The notes below the pieces were generated by a model, which was not told where the DNA came from, searched no databases, and saw nothing but the letters and a program-made list of their open reading frames with translations. From contig JAQMWT010000119.1 of the NCBI GenBank assembly GCA_029834535.1, positions 81,792 through 145,791 on the forward strand: 64,000 nt of DNA, read 5' to 3'. Positions 38,099 to 55,361 of this stretch are shown here, piece after piece; positions within the stretch are counted from its first letter, which is position 1; each line of letters begins with the position of its first letter. The DNA comes from Chrysophaeum taylorii (taxonomy: Eukaryota; Sar; Pelagophyceae; Pelagomonadales; Pelagomonadaceae). The position numbers and the translations under genes are program-made.

Positions 38099-38266
38099 AC
38101 GGCCCTCCCCAAATCACGCTAGTCAATCCTCTAAAGATTCTCGTGCGCATGAACAGACTCCAGACAGACTCGAGACCGACTCGAGACAGACGCGAGACAG
38201 ACGCGAGACAGACTCCGTCCCCTCATCCATCAGACAGACTCAAGTCAGACTCCAGACAGACAGCGA
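38099..38266 (+). repeat. Flank F, copy 1, with AGACAGACTC minisatellite
   Basis: ACGGCCCTCCCCAAATCACG ... CCAGACAGACAGCGA. It recurs between LTR2 and LTR3 at 48618-48774, where it is one 11-bp minisatellite unit shorter. Its last five bases AGCGA are the target duplication of the gypsy-type element. Confidence 0.8.
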
Positions 38267-38674
38267 TGTGGCGGCAACTCCCGCCTCCTACGGCTTACCC
38301 CTACTCTAGGGCCCCCCTTATCAGGGGCGCCCTACTCCGTTCTGATGATGTCTTTAAATGTCGACTGCTAAGAGGGGGGGGTGTGTGTGGGGAGCATGAA
38401 GGATGTGGGTGGGTGATGATGTCAGTGTTCTCTATGACATCATCTTCCTTTTCCGCGACATGCGTCACCCTGATTTCTGTTTTTCGACATATCCTTGATC
38501 ATAAAGCAACAGCCGGTCCTCAAGTTGAGAGGACCAGGCACGGAAGTTGTTTGTGGTCGTGTGGCGGGAGAACGGCCATCCTCGTCCAGTGACCCCACCA
38601 AGGGCACGGACGCGAGCGGCGAGCCAGGATTCGAAGGCACGCCAGGTAGCCCCTAAAATTCTCCTTACGCCACA
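38267..38674 (+). repeat. 5' LTR (LTR1) of the gypsy-type element
   Basis: It starts TGTGGCGGCAACTCCCGCC and ends CTCCTTACGCCACA, 338 bp without the 70-bp inserted block (a LINE fragment plus its duplicated target). It matches 48281-48617 and 48775-49112. It is preceded by AGCGA, which recurs after LTR3. Confidence 0.9.
38353..38413 (-). mobile_element. 61-bp LINE 3' fragment inside LTR1
   Basis: It is flanked by TGATGATGTC (38343-38352 and 38414-38423). The plus strand starts TTTAAATGTCGACTGC. LTR2 and LTR3 give the empty site, GATGATGTCAGTG, so this is a clean recent retrotransposition event of a tiny 3' end. Confidence 0.85.
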
Positions 38675-38700
38675 GGTGGTGGAGGAATACGAGATTCGAG
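38675..38700 (+). promoter_or_regulatory. Putative primer binding site of the gypsy-type element
   Basis: Two bases after LTR1 the sequence TGGTGGAGGAATACGAGATT, then CGAG, is the reverse complement of a tRNA-like 3' end (CTCGAATCTCGTATTCCTCC then ACCA), with a T-loop-like CTCGAAT and terminal CCA. The tRNA identity is not determined. Confidence 0.5.
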
Positions 38701-38725
38701 CGACTATATCGGTCGCAGCGAACTA

Positions 38726-41455
38726 GTGCATCTTGCATTCTCTACACGGTCCGGACAAGCCGTGCGCGCCCTGATCAAGCGCGCCGACAAGGAATTCCAG
38801 AAGGACCATTGCCGTGGGAAAGTCCCTTGGCCGGATACGTTAGTCGTCGGAAGTGACGACGCGCGATTCGGTGCTAACCGACGCGCAACCCGGGTACCGC
38901 TGCCGCAGGCGAGCGGAGTGAGATCGCAACTCACGGATAAGGCATTGATTGCCGGGCAGAGACGAATTCTGCCGCCCACCGGACTGATAGATTTGTCGGT
39001 GGAAGACGCACGCAACGACGATATTACGCGTGTCGTGGACGATTAGAAGTTCCAGAGTCGAAGGAGCACGAGAACGACGATGACTCAATTATTTTGGACC
39101 CGCTCTGATCTCGGCCGACTAGAACGAGCCAGAGCCGATATGGAAGACGATGATGCTGCCGTCGAGCAGCTACGATATGACGAACCGCCAAGCCGTCAGG
39201 ATGAGACGAGCGAGGGGAACGATGACGATGATACTGATTATGATGATGAGGAAGAAGAGCTGAACTACTACGGCGATGAACTGCCGAGGGCGCCGCCGAC
39301 GAGACAACCGGCCGCCCATCCAGAACGTGCGCGAGGTGATGAACCACCGAATGCTGCAAAGATTTACAAAGCCCAGTTACGCGAGATACGCCGAGAAAAT
39401 AAGCGCGCACAAGAAATCCTCACCCAGCTGATAGTAGAAGAGATACGGCGTGAATCGATACACCGGAATGAGATAAAAATAATGCAAGAGCAACTGCGTA
39501 GGGCCAACGCTCGAGCAGACGCCTTCCAAGATCAAGTAAGCTCGTTGACACGTGAAAGAGATGAATTGCGTACGCCGAGTCGCCCGAGGCGAGCGAGCAG
39601 TCTCGAGGGAGAATTCCGACCCTCGGAGGTACCGCCGCCCACGCGAACGCGAGCGAAAGTTAGGAAGCCGCGCGACAACGACGACGAGTCGTCCGAGATG
39701 ACCGAAACGTCGTTATACTACGAGCAAGAGCAATCCAAGTCAAAGGAGCTCACCCAAACCAAAATCCCCACAGAATCGGAGAATCTGACCGAAACGTCGT
39801 TAAACTACGGGCCGAAGCCGACAACCGCTTCTATCCCGGCGTCACCGTTGGTGGCACGATAAAATTTGTCGTCAGCTGACACAACCCTCGGTTTTGACGA
39901 CGCGCCGGAGTTATGTGTGAATCCGATTTACGAGCCCCGTGCAGCCGATGACGCCCAAAGTAAGGGACCCGCCGCTGCTACGCTCGATGCTATGAGTTTA
40001 CCTCCGGACATTCAAGTGGATGGCACTTCGTCTCCACGATCGATCGACGATGCGTCGCAGAGGATTACCTCGAATGATAAGCGCGCACCTGAGTACACAC
40101 CCATCGAACGTCACGTGCCCTTTGGTGGCCATTTCTTGACAGATATGACGTCGGGGACGACGCCTTCTTCTTTTGCAGGCCCCCCCGACGAACCGATTAC
40201 AGACGTTTTTGCAGACGTTAGTGCAGATGTTTTATTCCCTTTGACGATGGCATACGTTTCGTGTGCCGACATTTTTAGTGACAAGGGGATTGCCGATATT
40301 CTAAGCGATGGAGTGGATGATAGGCCGAGTGAAACGGCCGAGAAAATGAATACGAAAGCGGAAGAGGTGAAGAATCTTATAACGCATGAACTGCCTTTGG
40401 AGCTCAGTGAAAGCCCTGGCGTATTACTCACGAACGAAGAGTTCAAAGATTTTCAGCCTGCATATGATGATGGCTACGCGATAATAAAAGATCCCGAACA
40501 TACTATGAGGGATGAGTATAGCTGCCGCCCGGAATCGAATTTGGATGGGACGATCAGCATGGATAAGAGGAAGATGAGCGTACCGACGGTATGGATACGA
40601 GCTCACTGTTTCCTGAGGAAGAAACCGCCAGAGCGGAAAGAAGTGCGATTCCGACCCCGAGGCATGGATTTATTCGCCAACGGAGAGTTAATTTACGTTT
40701 GGTCGGAGTTTTGGCAAGAAGACGACGCATGTGTCGATGTTTCGATAGATGAGACGATTGAGACAGTTCGGATAGGCTTGGGAGCACCAGTCGCCTACAG
40801 GGACGATCCAGAGGTACTAGGACCTGCCGAACTGACGCCAGAGAGAGACAAAGATAACAAGAGCCCCAGTCGAAGTTCGCGCCGGCACAGACGACGCCGA
40901 TCGCGCGACGACGAATACGACGGAGGCCGACACCAATATAATTTGGGTTTTTTGAGCGCTACGCTCGCGTTTACGACCCCTTGCGGTCAACAGTTACCAT
41001 TAGGAGTGATGGTGTACCCGAACACGGACACCCGCCCCGACGACGCAGCCGACGCCCTTGCCGCGGCCGCATTCGAAGATCGTGCTCGCCCGCCGCCGGA
41101 CGAGCCACCCAACGAAGTGCTGTCCGATCGTCGGTCTTTGGCACAGATTTATGAGCAGATGTCGAGCGATGAGCTCGAAGATTCGAGCGAGGAACTTGAA
41201 GCTCCACGATACTGGGAAGGCGATTCAGATTTGGAAGATGAAGAAGCTACACCTTGTGAACCAGTGTCCGCGATAACGTTATTTGACGAGTCGTCCACGG
41301 ACGACCCACCGTTTATTTTTGACGAGGAAGCCTCGATGCCATCGGCTTATCTTTGGACCCTCCAGAGACGACCGTTGGCGACCGAACTGGCTGTGAGCCA
41401 GACATGGATTTCTGCAGTGATAGCTCGTGCGCTCATTCGACGGACGAGACGATGA
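38726..41455 (+). pseudogene. Gypsy-type element gag-like region
   Basis: One reading frame spans this region with stops at 39044-39046 (TAG) and 39860-39862 (TAA). The section from the ATG at 39080 is acidic, then coiled-coil (IRRENKRAQEILTQLIVEEI, QLRRANARADAFQDQVSSLT), then Arg/Ser-rich. The following part is acidic with a globular core (VPTVWIRAHCFLRKKPPERK) and an Arg-rich run RRHRRRRSRDD. There is no CCHC knuckle. The assignment to gag rests on position, coiled coil and basic patches. Confidence 0.55.
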
Positions 41456-43350
41456 CCATCGCGTGTAATGCAGACGACGATCTTACGATAGAGTTGACGT
41501 CGGGGACGACGCCATCTTTTCCTGCGGACCCCCCCGAAACGGTTTCGGTTACTACGGATTGAGCCACGTATACGCCGCCGGAAGAAAAGGATAGATTTAA
41601 GAAGACGATTAGCAGCGTTCTCAAGTGGGACGAAGACGAGCCGACGTCGAACCTGCAGGATTGGTGGACGAAAACTCAGAATTTCTTGTTAAAGAAGCCA
41701 CCAGAACAACCGCTCAGCGACGGAGTCAAAGCCGCAGCCGACACGGAACCGATCGCCGATGATGATGAAGATCAACCGGCGACGAATGAATTCACAGATG
41801 CATTCTGGAACGACGAAATGAATGATTTAAGGGAGGGGTCGTTTGCTTCCAAGAACTACGAAGACCAGGATCCCCTACCAGCGTTGATTCCCTCCGAGAT
41901 TGTCTTGGAGGAAGAGCGGAAGCCGCCAGATAAAGAGGCTGACGCGAGCGTTATGGCGAAGACGCCAACAACAGATGATACGAAAGCTCAAGCCGCGGTA
42001 TCGATTCCCAACCCCGGAGATGAGCGAGTCAGAGCCCGGTGTGCTCACACTTCGTTGACGCCGCGAGATGGCAAGACGATAGAAGATGATTTGGTTCCCC
42101 TCAGTTGTTTAGATACGGGTACTCTAACGTTTATAGCCTGTCATATCTACAGGAATCGTGACGGACCGAAATTCTCGACGACCATCGGTGTCGATGGAAT
42201 GGCAGATGCTTCTTATATTTGCCGAGAAATGGTCAGAAAATTGGCCAAAGATCAGTTGATTTTCGCTGAAGGCGAACTTCCGATTAAGCGCAAGCTGTAC
42301 GGATCAGGGTTGAATACGACGACGATCTATCGTTGGATCGCCATTCGGGTCGCCCTCGCCGACGACTTCGCTGCCCCCATTGTCGCTATTGTAGCCGATA
42401 CGAACTATCTGTTCCTGTTGGAAGGGCGCGATATACGAGTTTTAGGCGCCATTGTGGACTATCCCCACGATCGGATCTGTTTTTATCGAACCCAAGTCGT
42501 CTACGGACGCAAGAAGATTAAAGTTAAGGATGAACGAGTCGATGCACCCATCGTGACCTTTCGATCTATTTACGATCGAGATCCGATAACCGTGCCGATT
42601 TACAATCATCAACACGATGCCTTTCGGAAGAGTCTCGACCTAGTCAAGACTCGAGTTTACGCTCGTTTGAGCACGATTAAAGACCTCCGAAGCCCGCCGC
42701 CGGAACGAACGGTAGCCTTGGCTACGCGGGGGCATGCCACGACCAAATTCTCCCCAGCTCCGGGAGAAGCCGCGCAGGAAGTAGTCGCTTACGCTGCGCG
42801 CACGCTTCAAATCGAGCCCGGTCGAACTTACAATCTACCGGTTATTTTGTCGAAGCCTATGGAAATGGGACAGGTTTTCGTCGCTACGTTTGCTGAGAAC
42901 GAGCAGATGGGCGTTGTCGAAGGAATGTGTTCTTCTTGCGAAGAGCACGACCGATCCGCTGCTCGGGTGGCGGTTACTGCCACGGAAGAAGTGCCGACGG
43001 TCGTCACTCAAGGCGAAGTCCTTGCGATTGGAAGTATCGTTAGGTACGAAGACGAGTTGAACGTCTCTACGATCAACGAACTTATGAAAGAATGTGAAGA
43101 AGGATACGACAAGGGGAACCTTCCTTTCACCGTTTCTGTCGCTAGTCACTTGACGCGATGCGACGCATCTCCCCCGCCGATGCTGCTGAGCACGGTGCAG
43201 AAGGACGCTACGACCGCTATGGCGGACAAGTCCACCCTCAAACGACCTGAAGGCAGCGACGATTTCGCTCGAAGGTCAGAAGAAGATGAAAAGAAATGCC
43301 GCGAGATCACCGAAGCGGAGATCGGCCGCCGATATGAAAAGGTTCAATGG
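41456..43350 (+). pseudogene. Gypsy-type element protease-like region
   Basis: This frame has a TGA at 41560 and is then open to 44493. After an acidic linker there is a retropepsin-like segment: IGVDGMADASYICREMVRKL near 42185, KRKLYGSG, IVADTNYLFLLEGRDIRVLG, then IVDYPHDRICF. The order (active-site loop, flap region, LLG/RDxL-like second half) fits an aspartic protease. The usual D(S/T)GA reads DGMA, so the site is altered. The linker to the methyltransferase follows (to EKVQWLPIAYRK). Confidence 0.55.
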
Positions 43351-44493
43351 CTTCCAATCGCTTATCGCAAGGTGGTGATGCTGTTCAGTGGAGCCGGAGG
43401 CAGTACTTTAGGTCTCCAACGAGCCCACGAAACGTGTGGGACGTCGTTTCGAGTCGTGCTAGCACTCGATGCGTCGGACACCGCCAACCAGATCCACCAT
43501 AAGAATTTTCCGAACATTCCTGTGGTGCAGCACACACTGTGTGGTCGCTATGTTACAACCTTACGGTTGATCGAATCTTATTTACCCTACGCGGAATGGT
43601 CGTCGTCGATGTGTATCGCGTCGCCACCCTGCGTACACTCCGCTCTGTGCAACTTGACCTCCAGAGATGTTGGGGAAGGAGTCACCGCTACCCACTGGAC
43701 GATGAAATTATGCAAGGTGGCTGGTTTCTTCATGTGGCTGATAGAGCAGGAGGCTTCGATTATTTCTTACGTTGCACGTTTGCACCCGTACGTATACGTC
43801 GTCAATTTTTACGACATAACTCCTAGTTTGATGAGCTGTCGCGTGCGATTGTTGGTTTCGAGCCATCCGCTCCATTTGCGCGCAGTTCCAAAGACTGGCA
43901 AGAATATGCAACAAGAGTTCGCCGCTGCGCTTGGCTACGCCGACGAACGACATTTACTTCAGATGAACAATTTAGGATCATCACGAGCCGCGACAGACGC
44001 AGCTTATACTGTTACGCGTGTCCCGCTTCGCGTAGGACCGCACCGTTCCGATTACAGATCTCTGAATCTGGAAATGACTTCGGAGTTGCTGACGATGTCC
44101 CCTGATTTTGATTGGGCCGGCTTCTCCAGGACGACCTCGTTGAAACACTTGGCGTCCGTCGTGCCACCTGACACGATGGCCTTATTAGTGCTCGATCTGC
44201 ACAGCTCTGTGACCAGGGAATTTCACCTGAGCGGCGAAGCTTTGCCGTCAGCGTTGAGTCCTGCAGACCGACCGTTTGATTATTATTTGCAAATTGATAA
44301 AACCACCCTTCGTCACGTACAAGTTCCGCTGTTAAACACGCGCACACGTGTCGTAAGATGGGTGTCGAATGATGATCTTCAAGATCTCACCAAATGGAAA
44401 CCTCCAGAGGTACCGTTGATTCCGCCTGCAACAGATGAGCCGGGGACGTCTCATGCTTCTTCTGCTGCCCCCCCCCCCGACAACCAAATTTAG
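43351..44493 (+). pseudogene. C5-cytosine DNA methyltransferase domain in the gypsy-type polyprotein
   Basis: This is in the same open frame as the protease-like segment. Motif I is VVMLFSGAGGSTLGLQRA (from 43372), the AdoMet-binding FxGxGG loop. Motif II-like is VVLALDASDTANQIHHKNFP. Motif IV is MCIASPPCVHSAL, with the catalytic Pro-Cys at about 43624-43632. A later segment, ITPSLMSCRVRLLVSS, is placed like motif VIII. The ENV of motif VI is not clear. The target-recognition part is short. The enzyme would transfer methyl groups to cytosine C5. It sits between protease and RT, so it is part of the retroelement polyprotein. The frame ends at 44493 before the RT frame begins. Confidence 0.8.
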
Positions 44494-46731
44494 ACGTTCC
44501 GCCAGATCCTGAGCGAGATCGGGAACCGAAAATTAAGAGCGAGCCGAGTGTTCGTGTCAAAGGCGAGAGGATCAACAAAAGCCACCCGGAAGTGAAACTA
44601 AAATACGAGGAAAAGTTCGATGTGCCATGGAAAGATGCGCCGCGCGATGCTGAGGGTGCACCGCTGCCGCAAACTCCCGAGCATGTCAAGGACAACGAAG
44701 CAATGAAAGTTAAAATTCCTACGAAGGAAGAAGTTGACAAGGTTGTGCAGGAGCTGGGAATTCCTGACAATCCGCACTTAGATGACGAGGCGAAATTGAT
44801 GCTCCGTCACTGTGTGCAATATTCTTGGGCCTTTTTCGACCCGATTATGAGACCTGTGGACTCGCCTCCTGTGTCTCTACGATTCAAAGACGCGAATCCG
44901 CGACCGATAAAGATGACGCCCTACCGATTGACGCCTGCGAAGCTCGATTGCCTCCGCAAGCAGATCAGCGAGTGGTGCCGGGATGGAGTCATTCGTCCGG
45001 CCAACTCACCTTGGGGCTTTCCTGTGTTGATGCTTCCGAAGAAAGGAGCTGAGATTGGAACGTCAAACGCGTTCCGTGCTGCAGTTGACTTACGTCAGCT
45101 CAACGATCAATTGGTCAATGACAGTTGGCCAAACATTCGACAAGATGATGCTTTAGCCCTTTCTCGCGATGAGACGATGGCGGACATGCATTGATATTAG
45201 ATGGGGATACCACAACCTTCGTCTGGATCCGGCAGCGCAGGACGCTGTCACGATGGTTAGCCCACTTGGCGCTCATAGTTTCTTGCGATTACCTCTAGGT
45301 GTGAAGACGGCCGGAGCTCTTTTCTGCAAGCAAATGGCGAGCGACCTTTCGAAATGGATGTATCAAGACTTGGTTGCGTTTGTTGACGATATTATGATGG
45401 GATCCGACGATCTTCATCGACATTTACAAGTTTTGATCGAAGTGATGTGTCATTTGGCACAGAGAGGGTACAGCGGTCGAACCGCGAAGTTCCACCTTCT
45501 CAAGGATGATATAGAATTTCTGGGACACATTTCTACCCCAGAAGGCTTGAAGCCGAATCCGAAGACGCTGGAAGCACTGCAGAAGATGCCGATTCCAGGT
45601 ACTTTACCGAATACTTCCCCGAAGACCCAGATACGCTCTTTCATCGGCATGAGTAATTATTGCCGGCGATATGTAAAGAACTACTCGAAGATTGTGGAAC
45701 CGTTGAGACGATTATGCCTCGAAGGTGTAAAGTTCGAGTGGACGCCCGAGTGTCAGAAAGCTTGGGATATGATTATTGAAGCTTTGGTTGATTCCCGTGG
45801 AGTCTACCACGCCGATTATGATCTGCCTTTTCAGATCCGATCCGATGCTTCTAAGGATGGACTTGGAGCATATCTCTTCCAGATTGTCGAAGTCAAGGAC
45901 GATGCCGGAAGAGTGACTCGAGAAGAACGAGTAATTGAATACTGGAGCCGAGCTGTGCCGAAGGAGATGCGGAATTATGAGCCCCGTCGGCTAGAGCTGC
46001 TGGCAGTTATACTTTCTCTAGAGCACTTTCGAGCCTACATCGAAGGGCACCGTACTGTTTTGGAGACCGATCACCGAAATTTGACGTTTTTACGTAAGGC
46101 GACGCACTCGTCTGGGCAGCTTGCTCGTTGGGCGATGCGCCTCGCCAATTTTGACCCTGAACTTGGTTACAAGCCGGGAAAGTCACCGGGAATGAGTATC
46201 CCTGACTGTCTCTCCCGCAACCCGATAGATCATGTCATCGAGACTGACGAGTTTGGAGAACCTTTGAACCACGCTTATTTAGTGTTCCAAGAGCTTCCCC
46301 GACCTGTTGATGACCGAGGAGTTCCCGCCTCCGGCTGCCACTTCATAATGTCGTTTATTACGACCGAACTGCCGGAAGACGAAGACGAAGACCCTGAAAA
46401 GGATCCGATGAAATTGGCTACGTCTCACGCTACGAGACAACGTCGGAAGAACCGTGCGCGCGATGAGCCACAGATCTTCAAGGACGCAGCCGCTTACAAA
46501 GATTATATCGATAAGATACCCGATAATATGACGCTCGCTGAGATCGCACGTGAGCAAGAATCGGATGCTACTTGCGAGGATATTCGCTACCGAATGGCCC
46601 AAGGTCAGGCGCCGCGACGTTCCCGAGCGAACGAACGATTCGAAGTCGTTAAAGATGTTCTTTACCGCATTTCTGCTGATTTGCACCCGATGATTGTTGC
46701 ACCCGCTACGTTGCGTAAGCGCATTATTTGA
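44494..46731 (+). pseudogene. Gypsy-type element reverse transcriptase and RNase H
   Basis: RT: YRLTPAKLDCLRKQISEWCR, DGVIRPANSPWGFPVLMLPK, then AAVDLRQLNDQLV. A frame change at about 45180 precedes DIRWGYHNLRL, FLRLPLGVKTAGALF, and the catalytic FVDDIMMG near 45378. FLGHISTPEGLKPNPKTLEA then the SFIGMSNYCRRYVKNYS thumb region follow. RNase H: QIRSDASKDGLGAYLFQ, YEPRRLELLAVILSLEHFR, LETDHRNLTFL, then DCLSRNP. These are the family's standard blocks. The frame closes with a TGA at 46729. Confidence 0.9.
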
Positions 46732-48240
46732 CTCTACCACGACACTCCGGTTAACGGTGGTCATATGGGACGTCACAGTACCGTCCAGGCTATCCAAGAA
46801 CGATTTTGGTGGCCTCACATGTCGAACGAAGTTGGAGTCTTCATTGCTGAATGCTTGGTTTGCCAGAAAGCTCGTACGCCTGAGCCGAAACGAGCTGGAC
46901 TCTTGCAGCAGCCCGTCTACGACGGTGATGGTGCTGTTCTTTGCATGGATTTATTTGGACCCTTGCCCAGCGCTGGTCCCGAGACGTATCTTCTAGTATT
47001 TTTTGATCCGTTCTCGCATTTCTTGATTCTGGATGTTTTGAACGATAAGACTGCTGAGTCTGTCCTCGAGTCTTTTATCATTAACATCCTTCTCAAGGGC
47101 TAGTTGCCCCAGATGATTCGTACCGACAACGGTAAAGTGTTCGTGAACAGGTTGATGCGCGAGTTTTGCTATCTCTTCCACACCCGATACCAAACTACGA
47201 TTCCTTATCATGCCCAGTCGAACCCGGCTGAGCGTGCCAACCGATTTATCAAGGCCTTCCTCCGTGCTTGCCTTCAAGGACGGAACATCACGGATTGGCC
47301 TGACTTTGCTCATTGTATTGCGTTTTGCTACAACCGAAAGTTTGTTCCAGGCACGCAGATTTCCCCCTTTATGCTGCGCCTGAACCGTCAGCCGATGCTG
47401 CCGACTGACTACACGCTCATGGATTTTGATACACGATTATTGCCGAAGACTCGCTCTGATGCAGTCGCCGAGACTCGCGAACGATTGAAATATTATACCA
47501 AGATCGTCCGCGAGGCTCGTGATAAAGCTTTGAAGAAACAGCGATTGGCTTACAATGCTGATCATGTTGATGTTGAATACAAGGAAGGATCGCACGTTTT
47601 GCTCTACATTCCTTTCCTTCAGAACAAACTTCGACCGGAATGGCGAGGGCCGTTTATTATCAAGGAACGCCTCTCCCCGGTCACCTACAGGATTGAGTCT
47701 CTCGACTCTCCGCCCGAAGAGCGGCGTGTTCATGTAAGTCAGATCACGCCTGTGATGGTACCTCCGATCGTTGATCAAACCATCCGCAAACCCGAAGAAA
47801 CCTTCCGTGATGATTATCAGCACGGTAAGTTTGTTGTTTTCCGGATCCCTGACCGGAAGCGCTCTGATTGGCGCAAGAAGATTTATGTTGCCGAAGTTTA
47901 CGAGCCTTACGATTACCAAAATGATCGTGTTGCTCTACATTTATATTCCGATTTGGGTCCGAACGATGATGTCGCTTATTTCAAGCCGACCTCTCGCCTT
48001 TCGCACCGCAAGCTCAAGCCCGAATTCAAGGACGTTGAAGGTCGAAGTTTCACCGACAAGTCCCGAATTTCTTCCAACACAACTCCTTGTGTCACGGATT
48101 TCGCTCCACACGAGATTGATGTGTTGATACCCAAGTTTACTTTACGCAGTGGTCGAGTTCCTGAACCGATCATCACCCGCGTTTACCAGAAGATTCGTTC
48201 ACGAGATGCTCGTGAGGCGAAGCCGCGCTCCTCGCGCTAG
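46732..48240 (+). pseudogene. Gypsy-type element integrase and C-terminal tail
   Basis: It is in the same frame as RNase H after a TGA. The zinc HHCC finger reads LYHDTPVNGGHMGRHSTVQA then CLVCQK. The catalytic triad is Asp in CMDLFGPLP, Asp in RTDNGKVF (after a TAG at 47101) and Glu in NPAERANRFIK. The C-terminal half includes EGSHVLLYIPFLQNKLRPEW then RGPFIIKERLSPVTYRI, a GPF/Y-type module. A tail of about 150 residues ends at TAG 48238-48240. Confidence 0.85.
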
Positions 48241-48280
48241 CACCTCGCTGGGGCAGCTCGAATTCTTACCAGGGGAGTCC

Positions 48281-48617
48281 TGTGGCGACAACTCCCGCCT
48301 CCTAAGGCTTACCCCTCTTTTAAGGCCCCCCCTCATCAGGGGCACCCTACTCCGTTCCGATGATGTCAGTGTTCTCTATGACATCATCTTCCTTTCCGTG
48401 ACGCATGTCACGCTGATTTCTGATTTGCGATATATCCTTGATCATAAAGCAGCAGCCGGTCCTCAAGTTGAGAGGACCAGGCACGGAAGTTGTTTGTGGT
48501 CGCGTGGCGGGAGAACGGCCATCCTCGTCCAGTGGTCCCACCAAGGGCACGGACGCGATCGGCGAGCCAGGATTCGAAGGCACGCCAGGTAGCCCCTAAA
48601 ACTCTCCTTACGCCACA
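48281..48617 (+). repeat. LTR2, 3' LTR of the gypsy-type element
   Basis: It starts TGTGGCGACAACTCCCGCC after a purine tract (CAGGGGAGT). It ends CTCCTTACGCCACA and is followed directly by flank F copy 2 instead of the target duplication. It differs from LTR1 at many positions. Confidence 0.9.
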
Positions 48618-48774
48618 ACGGCCCTCCCCAAATCACGCTAGTCAATCCTCTAAAGATTCTCGTGCGCATGAACAGACTCCAGACAGACTCGAGACCGACT
48701 CGAGACAGACGCGAGACAGACTCCGTCCCCTCATCCATCAGACAGACTCAAGTCAGACTCCAGACAGACAGCGA
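48618..48774 (+). repeat. Flank F, copy 2, between LTR2 and LTR3
   Basis: It is nearly identical to 38099-38266. The junction LTR2/F shares ACA with the start of F copy 1 (GACAACGGCC), so a short microhomology marks the recombination point. Confidence 0.8.
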
Positions 48775-49112
48775 CGTGGCGGCAACTCCCGCCTCCTACG
48801 GCTTACCCCACTTCTAGGGCCCCCCTTATCAGGGGCACCCTACTCCGTTCTGATGATGTCAGTGTGTTCTCTATGACATCATCTTCCTTTTCCGTGACAT
48901 GCGTCACCCTGATTTCTGTTTTTCGATATATTCTTGATCTAAAGCAACAGCCGGTCCTCAAGTTGTGAGCACCAGGCACGGAAGTTGTTTGTGGTCGTGT
49001 GGCGGGAGAACGGCTATCCTCCTCCAGTGACCCCACCAAGGGCACGGACGCGAGCGACGAGCCAGGATTCGAAGGCACGCCAGGTAGCCCCTAAAATTCT
49101 CCTTACGCCACA
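48775..49112 (+). repeat. LTR3, additional LTR copy
   Basis: It matches LTR1 more closely than LTR2 (CTACGGCTTACCCC, TTGATCTAAAG region), with the first base changed (CGTGGCGG). AGCGA lies on both sides (48770-48774 and 49113-49117). Confidence 0.85.
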
Positions 49113-49162
49113 AGCGAGACAGATCCGCGTGGAGGAGGATAACAATTACCCCAGCACGTCAC

Positions 49163-50797
49163 ATGTTGACGAGTGCGTGCTGTGATGGTGACATCGGCGC
49201 CGTGCGATTGCAGCTCGATTCTTCTTGTTATTCCGACGTGAACGAGGTCGATGATAACGGTTACTCGCCCCTCGTGGGGGCGAGCTTCGGCGGCCACGTC
49301 GGCGTCGCCCAGCTCTTACTCTCACGAGGCGCTGAGGTGAACCAGACAGCCAAGAATGGTTGGTCGGCGCTGTACGCCGCGAGTCTGTACGGCCACGTCG
49401 AGTTGGCAAGCCTACTGGTCTCGAACGGCGCTGACGTCAACCAGGCCGCCGAAGACGGTTTATCGCCGCTGCACGTCTCGTGTAGGAACGGAGACGTTGA
49501 GGTGGCTACCCTGCTGCTCTCGAAGGGCGCCGACGTCAACCGCGTCGACGATTACGGTTGCTCGGCGCTTTGTCTTGCGAGCCAGCATGGCCACGTCAAA
49601 GCGGTTGCCCTGCTGCTGCTCGAGAAGACAACCAGCGTCGATGTCAACCTTGCCGATAACGATGGTGCCACGCCGCTATGCGCGGCCAGCCAGAACGGAT
49701 TCGTCGCCATCGTCCGATTGCTGCTTTCTCGCGGCGCTAACGCCAACCACGCCGGCGGCAACGGTGCCTCGCCGCTCTGCATGGCGAGCGAGAAGGGCCA
49801 CGTCGATGTGGTTCGGTTGTTGCTCGCGAATGGTGCCGACGTGAACCACGTCAAGGACGACGGCGGATCCTCGTCTCTTCACCTCGCTAGCAAGTACGGC
49901 CACGTCGAAGTGGTTCGATTATTGCTCGAGGAGACAACAGGCGCCGACGTCAATTTGACCGACAACAAGGGTGCCTCGGCGCTTCGGCTTGCGAGCCAGC
50001 ATGGCCACGTCGAAGTGGTTGCCCTGCTGATGCCCGAGAAGACAACCAGCGTCGATGTCAACCTCGGCGATAACGACGGCGCCACGCCGCTCTACGCGGG
50101 CTGCGAGTTCGGATTCGTCGCCATCGTCCGATTGCTGCTTTCTCACGGCGCTAACGTCAACCAAACCGCCTGCCGAGGTTGCTCGCCGCTCGGCGTGGCG
50201 AGCGAGGAGGGCCATGTCGATGTGGTTCGGTTGTTGCTCGCGAACGGTGCCGACGTGAACCACACCATGGACGCCGGCGGCTCGTCTCTTCATTTTGCCA
50301 GCCAATACGGCCACGTCGAAGTGGTGCGGTTGTTGCTCGCGAGCGGCGCCGACGTCAGTTTGACCAACACTATGGGTGCCTCGCCGCTTTGTCTTGCGAG
50401 CTTTGCTTCCTGCGTTTCCGTCGTCCAACTCTTGCTGAAACACGGCGCTGACGTCAATCAGGCCGCGTGGAATGGCATCTCGCCGCTTCATTTCGCTAGC
50501 TACGAAGGTTGCGTCGACATCGTTAGGTTATTGATTGAATATGGTGCCGACGTCCGCTGCGTGGATTCGAACGGCATGATGCCTATCGACGCGGCGCGCA
50601 ACTGTGGCCATCGCGCCGTCGTTTCCTGGCTGGTCGCCGCTACCCGATCTCCTCTCGACGAACTCATCTTGGAATTATCTTTCGGACAGGATGATGATTT
50701 TCAGGTTTTGGTTAGGAAAGAAAGCCGCACGACGAAGAAGTGTCCGCGCTGCGGTCGTCGACGAGTCCGTTTAAATTCCAGAGAGTCATGCCCATAG
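49163..50797 (+). CDS. Ankyrin-repeat protein with C-terminal CxxC motif
   Basis: 544 residues from an ATG 50 bp beyond LTR3. About 14 ankyrin repeats of ~33 residues fill residues 5-490 (pattern DxxGxSPLxxASxxGHVxVVxLLLxxGADVN). Two repeats are longer by insertion of EKTTSVDVN-type blocks. The C-terminus is separate and carries KKCPRCGRRR, half a zinc ribbon. Ankyrin repeats bind proteins; the partner is unknown. The repeats are very similar at DNA level, suggesting recent internal duplication. The upstream promoter would lie within LTR3. It may be a truncated host gene or a new ORF driven by the LTR. Confidence 0.75.
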   Translation: MLTSACCDGDIGAVRLQLDSSCYSDVNEVDDNGYSPLVGASFGGHVGVAQLLLSRGAEVNQTAKNGWSALYAASLYGHVELASLLVSNGADVNQAAEDGLSPLHVSCRNGDVEVATLLLSKGADVNRVDDYGCSALCLASQHGHVKAVALLLLEKTTSVDVNLADNDGATPLCAASQNGFVAIVRLLLSRGANANHAGGNGASPLCMASEKGHVDVVRLLLANGADVNHVKDDGGSSSLHLASKYGHVEVVRLLLEETTGADVNLTDNKGASALRLASQHGHVEVVALLMPEKTTSVDVNLGDNDGATPLYAGCEFGFVAIVRLLLSHGANVNQTACRGCSPLGVASEEGHVDVVRLLLANGADVNHTMDAGGSSLHFASQYGHVEVVRLLLASGADVSLTNTMGASPLCLASFASCVSVVQLLLKHGADVNQAAWNGISPLHFASYEGCVDIVRLLIEYGADVRCVDSNGMMPIDAARNCGHRAVVSWLVAATRSPLDELILELSFGQDDDFQVLVRKESRTTKKCPRCGRRRVRLNSRESCP

Positions 50798-51995
50798 GTG
50801 ATTAAGGGGCGTGTCACTCTCTTGCCTGTTGATGTGAGCTGTACTGAGGAACTGTTTTTTTGCGTACTCTTTGTTGTAACTGTGGTCACGAGCTCGCAGT
50901 CGTCGTCGTGCTTGAGTTTGGTTGAGACATCGACAGAGCGCGGGCCTTTCTTTTTGAAGGCACCATCGGAGACCTTCGCGTTCTCGAGTGCTCGGGGAAT
51001 GATCACGTAGAACCCCTTGGCTGGGCGAAGGCCGCTTCCAGGGGGTGGGGCGGGCGAGTCATAAACGAGGTACTGCACCCCCCCCCCCAGCGCTAAAGTT
51101 TCGTGCCGAGGTGGAGGTCTGCGACCCCCCAGCGCTAAAATTTCAAGCGGGGAGGGGGTGGGGTTCCTGGCCGCGCACCTACGCTTACGCGCCTGTCTCT
51201 AGCACTCGCTAGTCGGTCGCGAGAAGGTCTCATACGCGAGGGTAAACCTGGCTTGCTTGCCAGGCGCCCCGGTCTTCAGAGTTGACGCTAGGGTTAAACT
51301 GCCTCGCTCCGGTCTTCAGAGCCGCCGTTCTACGGAACGCCGCGAACTGAGGCTCGGCGGCTCTGTCGGAGGGGAGCGCCTCTGAGAGTCTCGGGCACGG
51401 GCGTTGAAGGCTCGGAGGATCAGAGGGAGCGCTGCGGCAGAGAGCTCAATTTGCCGTAGCCAAACGCGCGACTCCGAGCCGTCATACTTGGCGAGGTACT
51501 GAATGCGACCTGTTTTCGGCTCGGACCGCCTGCTTTCTACAGTTTCAGAGATGCGAAGATCTGCCGCGATGCATGAGGGTCCAAGTGGGAGTTCGGTGAG
51601 CCCTGAGCACTCGAGGTGCGTATGGCGGGCGAAACGGCACCTCACCGGCACAGGGGTATATCGCCGACACGCCGAAAACGGTCCGCAAGTGAATGTGGGG
51701 GTATTTTATTCCGCCACCTCCTAAAACAGACTTCAAGACAGACTCAAGACAGACTCCAGACAGACTCCGGGGTGACGGCCACCAGGCAGATTGCAGTCGG
51801 ACTCCAGTCGAACTCCAGTCGGACTCCAGACAGACTCCAGACAGTCTCCAGGTAGGCTCCAGGTATTCACCAGACAGCGGCGACGCCGTCTGCGATCATA
51901 AACCAACAACCAACGACGAAAAGGGTTTTGACTAGAATTCAGGGTTCACTCACGAGGGGTTGTCGTGCGGCGGAGTGCGCAGCCATCGATCGTTC
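50798..51995. other. No intact gene; remnants and minisatellite
   Basis: Minus-strand frames at 50701-51078 (FYVIIPRALENAKVSDGAF) and 51316-51651 (GRIQYLAKYDGSESRVWLRQ) look like protein fragments but have no recognised domain. A C-run and a duplicated CCCCCCAGCGCTAAA lie at 51069-51140. At 51725-51860 a minisatellite of GACAGACTCCA-type units resembles that in flank F. Confidence 0.45.
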
Positions 51996-54968: not shown

Positions 54969-55361
54969 AACCTGGTGGCAAGCGGCTGCGCCAACTTCAC
55001 AGAGGCAAAGGCGGCCCAAACTCGCCGCATCTACCGTGAGTGGGGGATCGCCAACGCATTAGGCCGGGCTCGCTGCGCCCTCACCGCCCTCACCCATGTC
55101 GCCGCCTCGGGGAGCCCCACCCAGGCCGCCCGATCCCAGCAGGACGTCGCCCTTCGTCGCACATACGTCCGGCGGCAGCATGCGTACGACCTCCGGGCGG
55201 GGCCCGTCCTTTCTTCGCCTGCCCCACGACTCGGCGATGACCCCGACTAGGTCCCGCATACTTATCTCCGCCCGTCAGGCACATCCCTCCTACCCCACAA
55301 AACCACCCACATCCTTCATGCCCCACACACACACCCCCCTCTTAGCAGTCGACCTTTTAAA
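54969..55361 (+). mobile_element. LINE 3' fragment (393 bp) in the 5' region of the glycosyltransferase gene
   Basis: It is bounded by GACACACGAAAAAA (54955-54968 and 55362-55375), a 14-bp target duplication. It carries the C-terminal codons of the LINE protein in plus orientation and the 3' UTR ending GTCGACCTTTTAAA. The right duplication ends 14 bp before the glycosyltransferase ATG at 55390. Confidence 0.85.

Follow-up and report, generated by a model that had tools for sequence, protein, structure and literature searches.

A Ty3/Gypsy retrotransposon family of the pelagophyte Chrysophaeum taylorii, designated F1, carries within its Pol region a domain of the C5-cytosine-methyltransferase (MTase) type, and judging from the sequences compared and by the criteria tested, the family has been successful and has maintained this domain. 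Hosts commonly use cytosine methylation against transposons, and elements with a C5-MTase of their own therefore present a paradox. The explanation that we consider best as a whole, and hold with somewhat better than even confidence, is that the Pol-borne C5-MTase of F1 is active and premarks new copies of the element.

Organization of the element in the window

The window is the 64,000-nucleotide stretch of the C. taylorii genome that was analysed, and the coordinates below are positions in it. It contains a broken copy of F1, a Ty3/Gypsy-type LTR retrotransposon that spans positions 38267-48617, or up to 49112, and that presents the order RT (reverse transcriptase), RNase H and integrase together with Gypsy-type RT families. 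The element comprises the following features:

38267-38674, + strand: 5' LTR (TGTGGCG...CGCCACA), which recurs at 48281-48617 and 48775-49112
38677-38702, + strand: putative primer-binding site of 26 bases, starting with TGG, 2 bases past the LTR
39047-41455, + strand: gag-like region, so called by position only, in two frames split by a single stop
41563-44493, + strand: open frame of 976 aa, with protease-like segment, linker and MTase domain
42190-42462, + strand: protease-like segment, with VDGMADASYI at 42190-42219 and LFLLEGRDIRVLGAIVDY at 42409-42462
43369-44229, + strand: C5-cytosine-methyltransferase-type domain, from motif I to just beyond motif X
44733-46731, + strand: RT and RNase H, here in two frames with a break near 45157-45194
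47104-48240, + strand: integrase, consisting of the 3' part of the core (rve, sub-threshold) and a C-terminal Integrase_p58_C (over the cut-off)
48281-48617, + strand: 3' LTR, 92.9% identical to the 5' LTR
48775-49112, + strand: third LTR copy, 95.6% identical to the 5' LTR; the 160 bases ahead of it repeat the left flank of the 5' LTR without a difference

In the window copy the coding sequence is interrupted by stops or frame overlaps at about 39862, 41455-41563, 44439-44493, 45157-45194 and 46731-47104, so that the protein is spread over several frames, and the 5' part of the integrase is interrupted. The RT and RNase H exceed the Pfam cut-offs (PF00078, PF17917 and PF17919), with the RT motif FVDDIM starting at 45379. 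The gag-like frames matched no Pfam family above the cut-off; a sub-threshold Tropomyosin match was obtained for the first frame and none for the second. The active site of retropepsins is DTG (D-T/S-G), and its place is occupied by DGM in the protease-like segments of F1 and F2, a sister Gypsy family (window 42190-42219, with equivalents in L024 and L029); the segment at 42190-42462 lacks any Pfam match. A second protease-like stretch is nevertheless retained (LLxGxRDxRVLGAIVDY in F1).

The putative primer-binding site is the complement of a tRNA-like 3' end terminating in CCA, and a 19-base part of it is found 99 times in the genome; no matching tRNA gene was found with one sequence pattern or in three loci. 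The 5' LTR holds an extra insert of about 61 bases (about 38353-38413) that is absent from most other genomic matches. This insert is found again, inverted, at 55303-55360, and further inverted arms lie at 37136-37250/55135-55249 and 37308-37409/54975-55076 (85%). The pentanucleotide AGCGA, a candidate target-site duplication, stands before the first LTR (38267), before the third (48775) and after the third (49112), and does not follow the second. The arrangement with a third LTR could have come about by LTR recombination after a local duplication, or by the joining of two haplotypes end to end in the assembly. An 11-base minisatellite (GACTCCAGACA-like) adjoins the LTRs at 38134-38266 and 48653-48774, and appears again 2.6 kb downstream, at 51719-51888. 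Just downstream of the element lies a 569-aa frame (49088-50797), ankyrin-repeat-like by eye, with DNA repeats 99 bases apart.

A C5-methyltransferase-type domain between the protease-like segment and the RT

The first-pass annotation had placed C5-MTase motifs in one frame at 43351-44493 and had positioned the enzyme between a protease-like segment and the RT of a Gypsy element. Both claims are borne out: motif I, the acidic position and the ASPPC loop all lie in the 41563-44493 frame, and the assignment of 43369-44229 as a C5-cytosine-methyltransferase-type domain at that location is confirmed at the level of homology. The domain proper stops at about 44229, and the interval from there to 44493 is a linker toward the RT. 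Motif I (KVVMLFSGAGG, 43369-43401) is in the same frame as the remaining MTase motifs, the acidic motif II/III position is D57 in VVLALDAS, and motif IV (ASPPC, 43618-43632, + strand), with the predicted catalytic Cys, is the same in all 15 aligned family members. Beyond the motifs named at first pass, a VI-like segment, WLIEQE (43735-43752), contains the candidate motif VI, EQE (43744-43752, + strand), in place of ENV, whose first Glu is likewise invariant in all 15 members and lies 38 residues from the motif IV Cys in F1. The Cys-to-Glu spacing of M.HhaI is also 38 residues. EQE is probably motif VI of F1 and F2, an assignment that rests on spacing because hhalign does not align this Glu with ENV. 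The VIII-like (SCRVRLL, 43834-43854), IX-like (RSLNLEM, 44056-44076) and X-like (LASVVPP, 44149-44169, + strand) segments follow, so that motifs I, II/III, IV, VIII, IX and X stand in canonical order in the F1/F2 domain. It departs from the C5-MTase consensus in having EQE for ENV, no Gln in QxRxR and Ser instead of Asn in GNxVPP; both Arg residues of motif VIII and the VPP of motif X are kept.

On its own, the window copy scores below the Pfam cut-off of 22 bits for PF00145 (17.6 bits, E 0.0027, with the whole ORF; 19.9 bits, E 5e-4, with the domain alone), and the match spans only motif I to about motif III. For this reason, a family alignment of 15 rows was built (seven F1/F1b and eight F2/F2b). 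In the PF00145 comparison proposed at first pass, the window copy taken alone thus falls short, and the family goes well beyond chance: every one of the 15 rows hits the model (E up to 1; best 3.1e-10), and the F2b copy L049 reaches 33.9 bits, above the cut-off. The same 15 rows match TIGR00675 dcm (E up to 1; best 1e-5), with the window row far below that model's own cut-off, and the phage methyltransferase family phrog_116 (E up to 1; best 1.9e-12). Twelve motif positions are all invariant across these rows, in which 84 of 287 core columns are invariant; the corresponding chance of 2e-7 flatters the result, because the motif positions were chosen with the alignment in view.

Profile comparisons extended the homology over the whole domain. 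With hhalign, whose E-values here are per single profile pair and not database-scaled, the F1/F2 alignment matched an alignment of four prokaryotic/viral C5-MTases with a probability of 97.8 (E 7.8e-13) over 261 columns, placing F1/F2 columns 16-294 on columns 37-368, from motif I to motif X. Against 16 Dnmt2 proteins, the probability was 96.1 (E 3.6e-9) over 156 columns, in the N-terminal half only. A PDB search with the F1/F2 profile returned three matches at E up to 1, none to a chain named Dnmt3: 8yf3 (a prokaryotic C5-MTase, E 0.027), 3g7u (a C5-MTase, 0.44) and a glycosyltransferase (0.49). The match to 8yf3 consists of the motif I stretch and then the motif IX-X stretch, in that order. 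When a single sequence was used as query, Dnmt2 ranked first (E 0.04). The SPPC loop, considered unusual in the first-pass annotation, turned out to be ordinary: it is present in the public protein P0001 and in five of six viral loci (L056 has SPEC), and is invariant in the 16 Dnmt2 proteins.

The domain is a fixed part of the family

The genome searched comprises 70.8 Mb in 697 contigs. An MTase-domain query gave at least 104 matches (104 of 1135 candidates scored), 76-100% identical, and 80 of these 104 contain no stop within the matched stretch. At least 89 copies were scored with an RT query (of 1521 candidates), and for 48 of them the MTase matches listed include one on the same strand, no more than 2.5 kb upstream. 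For the other 41, the upstream DNA was read (1.4 kb for 39 of them) and was found to hold more than 150 of the 345 MTase residues in 30 copies, 20-150 residues in eight and none in three. In total, 86 of the 89 scored RT copies keep the domain wholly or partly, and it occupies the same position in F1, F1b, F2 and F2b. The F2 family shares the domain at about 35% identity, with the motif positions invariant, and an F2 MTase query gave 121 matches, some of which are fragments of one copy. The search for intact copies that the first-pass annotation had proposed turned up long open ones: two carry both the MTase and the RT match within a single open frame of more than 3,000 aa.

A search of the genome for MTase-free Gypsy relatives, in which two loci were read, led back to the same families. 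One of them, L187 (G000:C335), is an F2b copy that lost the MTase by an internal deletion and still has an open RT; the other, L186, is F1b-like and, over the 2.8 kb that were read, shows the MTase's C-terminal half. The MTase domain is therefore a fixed part of the family, and domain-less copies are the exception. The possibility that a gene fragment was inserted by chance into one copy, for which the three domain-free copies among the 41 read separately and the loss in L187 might speak, is refuted by the retention in 86 of 89 copies and by the shared position across the four groups, and we give it practically no credence.

Relatives in public proteins were scarce. None of the 43 matches found by RT contains PF00145 (8000 candidates scored), and with the MTase profile only P0001 passes E 0.01 (E 4e-5; 8000 candidates scored from a database of 5.8 billion proteins). 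A search for relatives of P0001 in a database of genome contigs gave nothing useful.

Selection on the domain and age of the insertions

The MTase domain is under purifying selection, somewhat looser than that acting on the RT. Its median dN/dS was 0.23 within F1 (36 pairs) and 0.05 between F1 and F1b (36 pairs; dS 2.3, near saturation), and the RT of the same copies gave 0.11 and 0.02, respectively, so that within F1 the MTase value is about twice that of the RT. For the MTase, the values were 0.06 inside F1b (6 pairs), 0.16 inside F2 (10 pairs) and 0.07 between F2 and F2b (15 pairs); inside F2b, three pairs with hardly any change gave 0.87, and the comparison of F1 with F2 was saturated. These are Nei-Gojobori counts on non-independent pairs, taken only from rows without stops in the MTase. 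Several RT rows are truncated or run across frame breaks, which makes the RT values inside F1b, F2 and F2b unreliable; the RT values used are those within F1 and, with the same caution, between F1 and F1b. These dN/dS values indicate that the domain was retained throughout the divergence of F1 and F2, now about 35% identical.

In four other copies, the two LTRs are 98.2, 97.1, 99.5 and 97.7% identical (difference 0.55-2.9%). Since the LTRs of one copy differ by only 0.55%, some insertions are recent.

Origin of the F1/F2 domain

A tree of 21 rows, built without DNMT1, DNMT3, the chromomethylases and the Copia (F3) enzyme described below, united F1 and F2 with full support (100/100), on a stem 3.28 changes per site long, with a program warning of long branches. 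Its viral rows derive from 80 loci, of which 77 had a usable frame, reduced to two rows at 50% identity. The neighbour of F1/F2 is one viral MTase, with 53% support, and the best tree puts F1/F2 outside the Dnmt2 clade. In AU tests, grouping F1/F2 with Dnmt2 (p 0.12) or with the host DNMT5 (p 0.11) costs 3.1 log units in each case and neither grouping is rejected. The tree that the first-pass annotation had called for thus unites the two families and leaves the domain unplaced among the other enzymes, and an old link of the F1/F2 domain to Dnmt2 or DNMT5 is compatible with both tests.

A recent origin from a present host gene was rejected; no close host relative was seen, and the host-type genes found are Dnmt2 and DNMT5. 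A fair statement is that these comparisons point to one capture before the split of F1 and F2, with the likeness best to prokaryotic/viral enzymes among the sets compared.

A Copia family with a different C5-MTase and the host enzymes

The genome also harbours a Copia family, F3 (PF07727 RVT_2, E 1.6e-38), whose polyprotein carries a C5-MTase ahead of the integrase. This MTase matches PF00145 with 32.1 bits (E 1.1e-7) and has LPCQ and ENV motifs; the integrase is sub-threshold (rve, E 0.006). An F3 MTase query gave 157 matches, some of them fragments of one copy. In the F3 loci L020, L032, L012 and L022, the MTase is placed between a protease-like DGGAS and the integrase, and a motif X-like ANAVPHHM lies about 350 residues past motif VIII, as if a large extra segment were inserted in the domain.

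The F3 MTase profile matched the prokaryotic/viral set with a probability of 91.9 and Dnmt2 with 39.7, and its hhalign comparison with the F1/F2 profile gave a probability of 0.1, that is, no match. One recent common capture for the Gypsy and Copia families is rejected because the profiles do not match, with the reservation that the F3 alignment is shallow; an ancient common source of the two MTases is possible. Since F3 carries a different C5-MTase, two separate captures, one in Gypsy and one in Copia, probably coexist in this genome.

A PF00145 search of the genome gave at least 121 matches (123 of 474 candidates scored, exon by exon, a procedure that intron-cut genes could escape). Coordinates assign 81 of the 121 to F3 (56), F1 (15), F2 (8) and the host (2). 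Only the beginning of the profile is matched by the remaining 40, as is the case for F1, and the three of these that were read (L027, L029 and L077) are F1 or F1b. One host gene is Dnmt2 (L009, G000:C634), identical over 360 aa to CTAYLR_008533. The other is an orthologue of DNMT5, a maintenance enzyme (L010, G000:C621); it matches PDB 7r76 at E 3e-143, a chain deposited under the name Rad8 that we take to be Cryptococcus DNMT5. No further host-type C5-MTase gene was recognised among the 121 scored matches. That C. taylorii has no de novo cytosine methyltransferases other than those of its retrotransposons seems improbable to us; if it were so, the methylation pattern of the host would be seeded by Gypsy and Copia elements, with the host merely maintaining it.

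Methylation footprint and possible function of the domain

Observed/expected CpG ratios range from 1.13 to 1.30 across eight F1 copies, from 1.03 to 1.11 across four F2 copies and from 1.00 to 1.10 across seven F3 copies; three window stretches outside the element gave 1.01, 1.28 and 1.32, a span that includes the F1 values. Among the eight F1 copies, C/T differences show no excess at CG (CG 3.0%, CA 2.1%, CC 3.3%, CT 4.3%). No clear CG enrichment was observed in F2 (CG 5.2%, CA 3.4%, CC 4.7%, CT 5.0%), and F3 presents a slight CG excess (CG 9.4%, CA 3.6%, CC 8.0%, CT 6.7%). Given ordinary CpG ratios and no CG excess of C/T differences, heritable CG methylation of F1 copies has left no mutational trace, and CG self-methylation visible as CG decay in F1 is rejected. 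Transient methylation of cDNA, methylation in other contexts or a host without loss of methylated CG may be compatible with the absent F1 footprint.

We infer the methylation activity, the target and the benefit of the F1/F2 domain as follows. The MTase would be made as part of Pol and packed with the RT and integrase in the particle. With SAM as methyl donor, it would methylate cytosines, either in the newly made cDNA or in the host DNA where the element integrates. A new copy would thereby enter the genome already marked, and the DNMT5 of the host could go on to maintain these marks. What the element would probably gain is a resemblance to host DNA, or being quiet enough to be tolerated. This premarking explanation draws on the C5-MTase homology over the whole domain, the invariant motif positions, its fixation, purifying selection, the two copies with MTase and RT in one long open frame, the young insertions, the parallel in F3 and the precedent of SymbioDIRS (see below). 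Against it stand the EQE, Gln and Asn changes, the missing CG trace, a dN/dS higher in the MTase than in the RT within F1 and reaching 0.87 in the F2b pairs, and the yeast assay of the precedent Gypsy MTase, which gave no methylation and which its authors consider inconclusive.

Some of the same observations would suit a domain that keeps the MTase fold and is no longer a methyltransferase, serving instead within Pol as a structural part or to bind DNA or SAM. The replacement of ENV, of the QxRxR Gln and of the GNxVPP Asn is in line with such a role, as are the lack of a CG footprint in F1 and a divergence so extreme that a single public protein, P0001, was retrieved with the MTase profile. 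However, the Cys, the glycines of the SAM loop, the candidate motif VI Glu, the motif VIII Arg and the motif X Pro are invariant in all 15 members at 35% identity, and a purely structural use would not need the catalytic Cys. We regard this alternative as unlikely, albeit the most serious competitor of premarking.

Less likely again is an enzyme that, like Dnmt2, methylates RNA, either that of the element or its primer tRNA, rather than DNA. The SPPC loop is shared with Dnmt2, which also ranked first in the single-sequence PDB search and whose grouping with F1/F2 was not rejected by the AU test, and with an RNA target a missing CG deamination footprint would be expected. Nevertheless, the profile match to prokaryotic/viral DNA MTases is both stronger and longer than that to Dnmt2, and motif X reads VPP, as in the prokaryotic/viral set, and not GNSLHV as in the Dnmt2 consensus.

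An enzyme aimed at DNA elsewhere, be it that of rival elements, of the host's genes or of large DNA viruses, and acting as a weapon or a host defence, seems slightly less probable still. Such a role has been proposed for retrotransposon methylases generally (PMC6338049), and the presence in one genome of two families whose MTases are unlike would accord with it; yet selection on each family would favour an effect on the element itself.

If new F1 copies are premarked, an element could tag its own copies with the mark that hosts normally use for silencing. With probably two captures in one 71-Mb stramenopile genome, capture looks like a repeatable solution and not an accident, and one of the two involves an enzyme type without a demonstrated Dnmt3 link (the tree contained no Dnmt3 rows). 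C. taylorii offers a small, culturable genome for testing element-borne methylation, and in a host where DNMT5 is found and no de novo enzyme was recognised, who writes the methylome becomes directly testable.

Comparison with known systems

According to the accessible text of PMC5890265, C5-MTase-bearing elements are described for two lineages, dinoflagellates and charophytes, and Pelagophyceae is not among them, in agreement with the first-pass suggestion of a possibly undescribed lineage. The same annotation had referred to captures by LTR retrotransposons in algae and dinoflagellates; the algal and dinoflagellate precedents exist, but most are not LTR elements, comprising LINE and DIRS elements in Symbiodinium and one Gypsy family in Klebsormidium (PMC5890265). 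A pooled sentence of PMC6338049 lists Dam-/Dcm-encoding Ty3/Gypsy and DIRS elements in stramenopiles among others, and a stramenopile case may therefore have been noted earlier. Copia and DIRS elements with DNMT3 members are mentioned in PMC12344493, an N4C/6mA-type methylase is reported in an Ectocarpus DNA transposon (PMC12477816) and DNMT5 is reported in pelagophytes (PMC9998398, PMC3145265). In the literature searched, mostly outside subscription journals and preprints, no report of retrotransposon C5-MTases in pelagophytes was found, and the available text describing the C. taylorii NIES-1699 assembly (71 Mbp, 702 contigs) contains no word beginning with 'transpos' (PMC10366177).

The Dcm-type C5-MTases of prokaryotes and phages (P0001, PDB 8yf3, phrog_116) share with F1/F2 the motif order, the (A/G)SPPC loop and VPP. 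However, they are free enzymes with ENV, the QxRxR Gln and GN, whereas the F1/F2 domain is embedded in Pol and has these residues changed. Dnmt2 (TRDMT1, including the host L009) has the SPPC loop and an alignable N-terminal half in common with F1/F2, but its C-terminal half is not aligned by hhalign. The Dam-type methylases of DIRS and other elements are also encoded by transposons, but they are adenine methylases and structurally unrelated (PMC5890265).

Like F1, SymbioDIRS-Dnmt3 and SymbioLINE-Dnmt are retroelements that carry C5-MTases in many copies, hundreds in Symbiodinium, although they belong to other classes, namely tyrosine recombinase DIRS and LINE ORF1 (PMC5890265). Two forms of the SymbioDIRS DNMTs methylate CG de novo in yeast, and SymbioLINE copies are CG-depleted whereas those of SymbioDIRS are not (PMC5890265); F1 copies, which are not CG-depleted, resemble SymbioDIRS in this respect and differ from SymbioLINE. 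KnitGypsy-Dnmt3 of Klebsormidium nitens, like F1, has a C5-MTase inside a Gypsy Pol, with purifying selection reported; when the Gypsy MTase was assayed in yeast, no methylation was obtained, a result that its authors consider inconclusive (PMC5890265). The KnitGypsy MTase clusters with Dnmt3 and the repeats of KnitGypsy are DIRS-like (PMC5890265). The F1/F2 tree contained no Dnmt3 rows, the LTRs of F1 are ordinary direct repeats, and the two host lineages are unrelated. In summary, element-borne C5-MTases as such were already known (PMC5890265), and what is new here is the host lineage, the enzyme type and the multiple captures.
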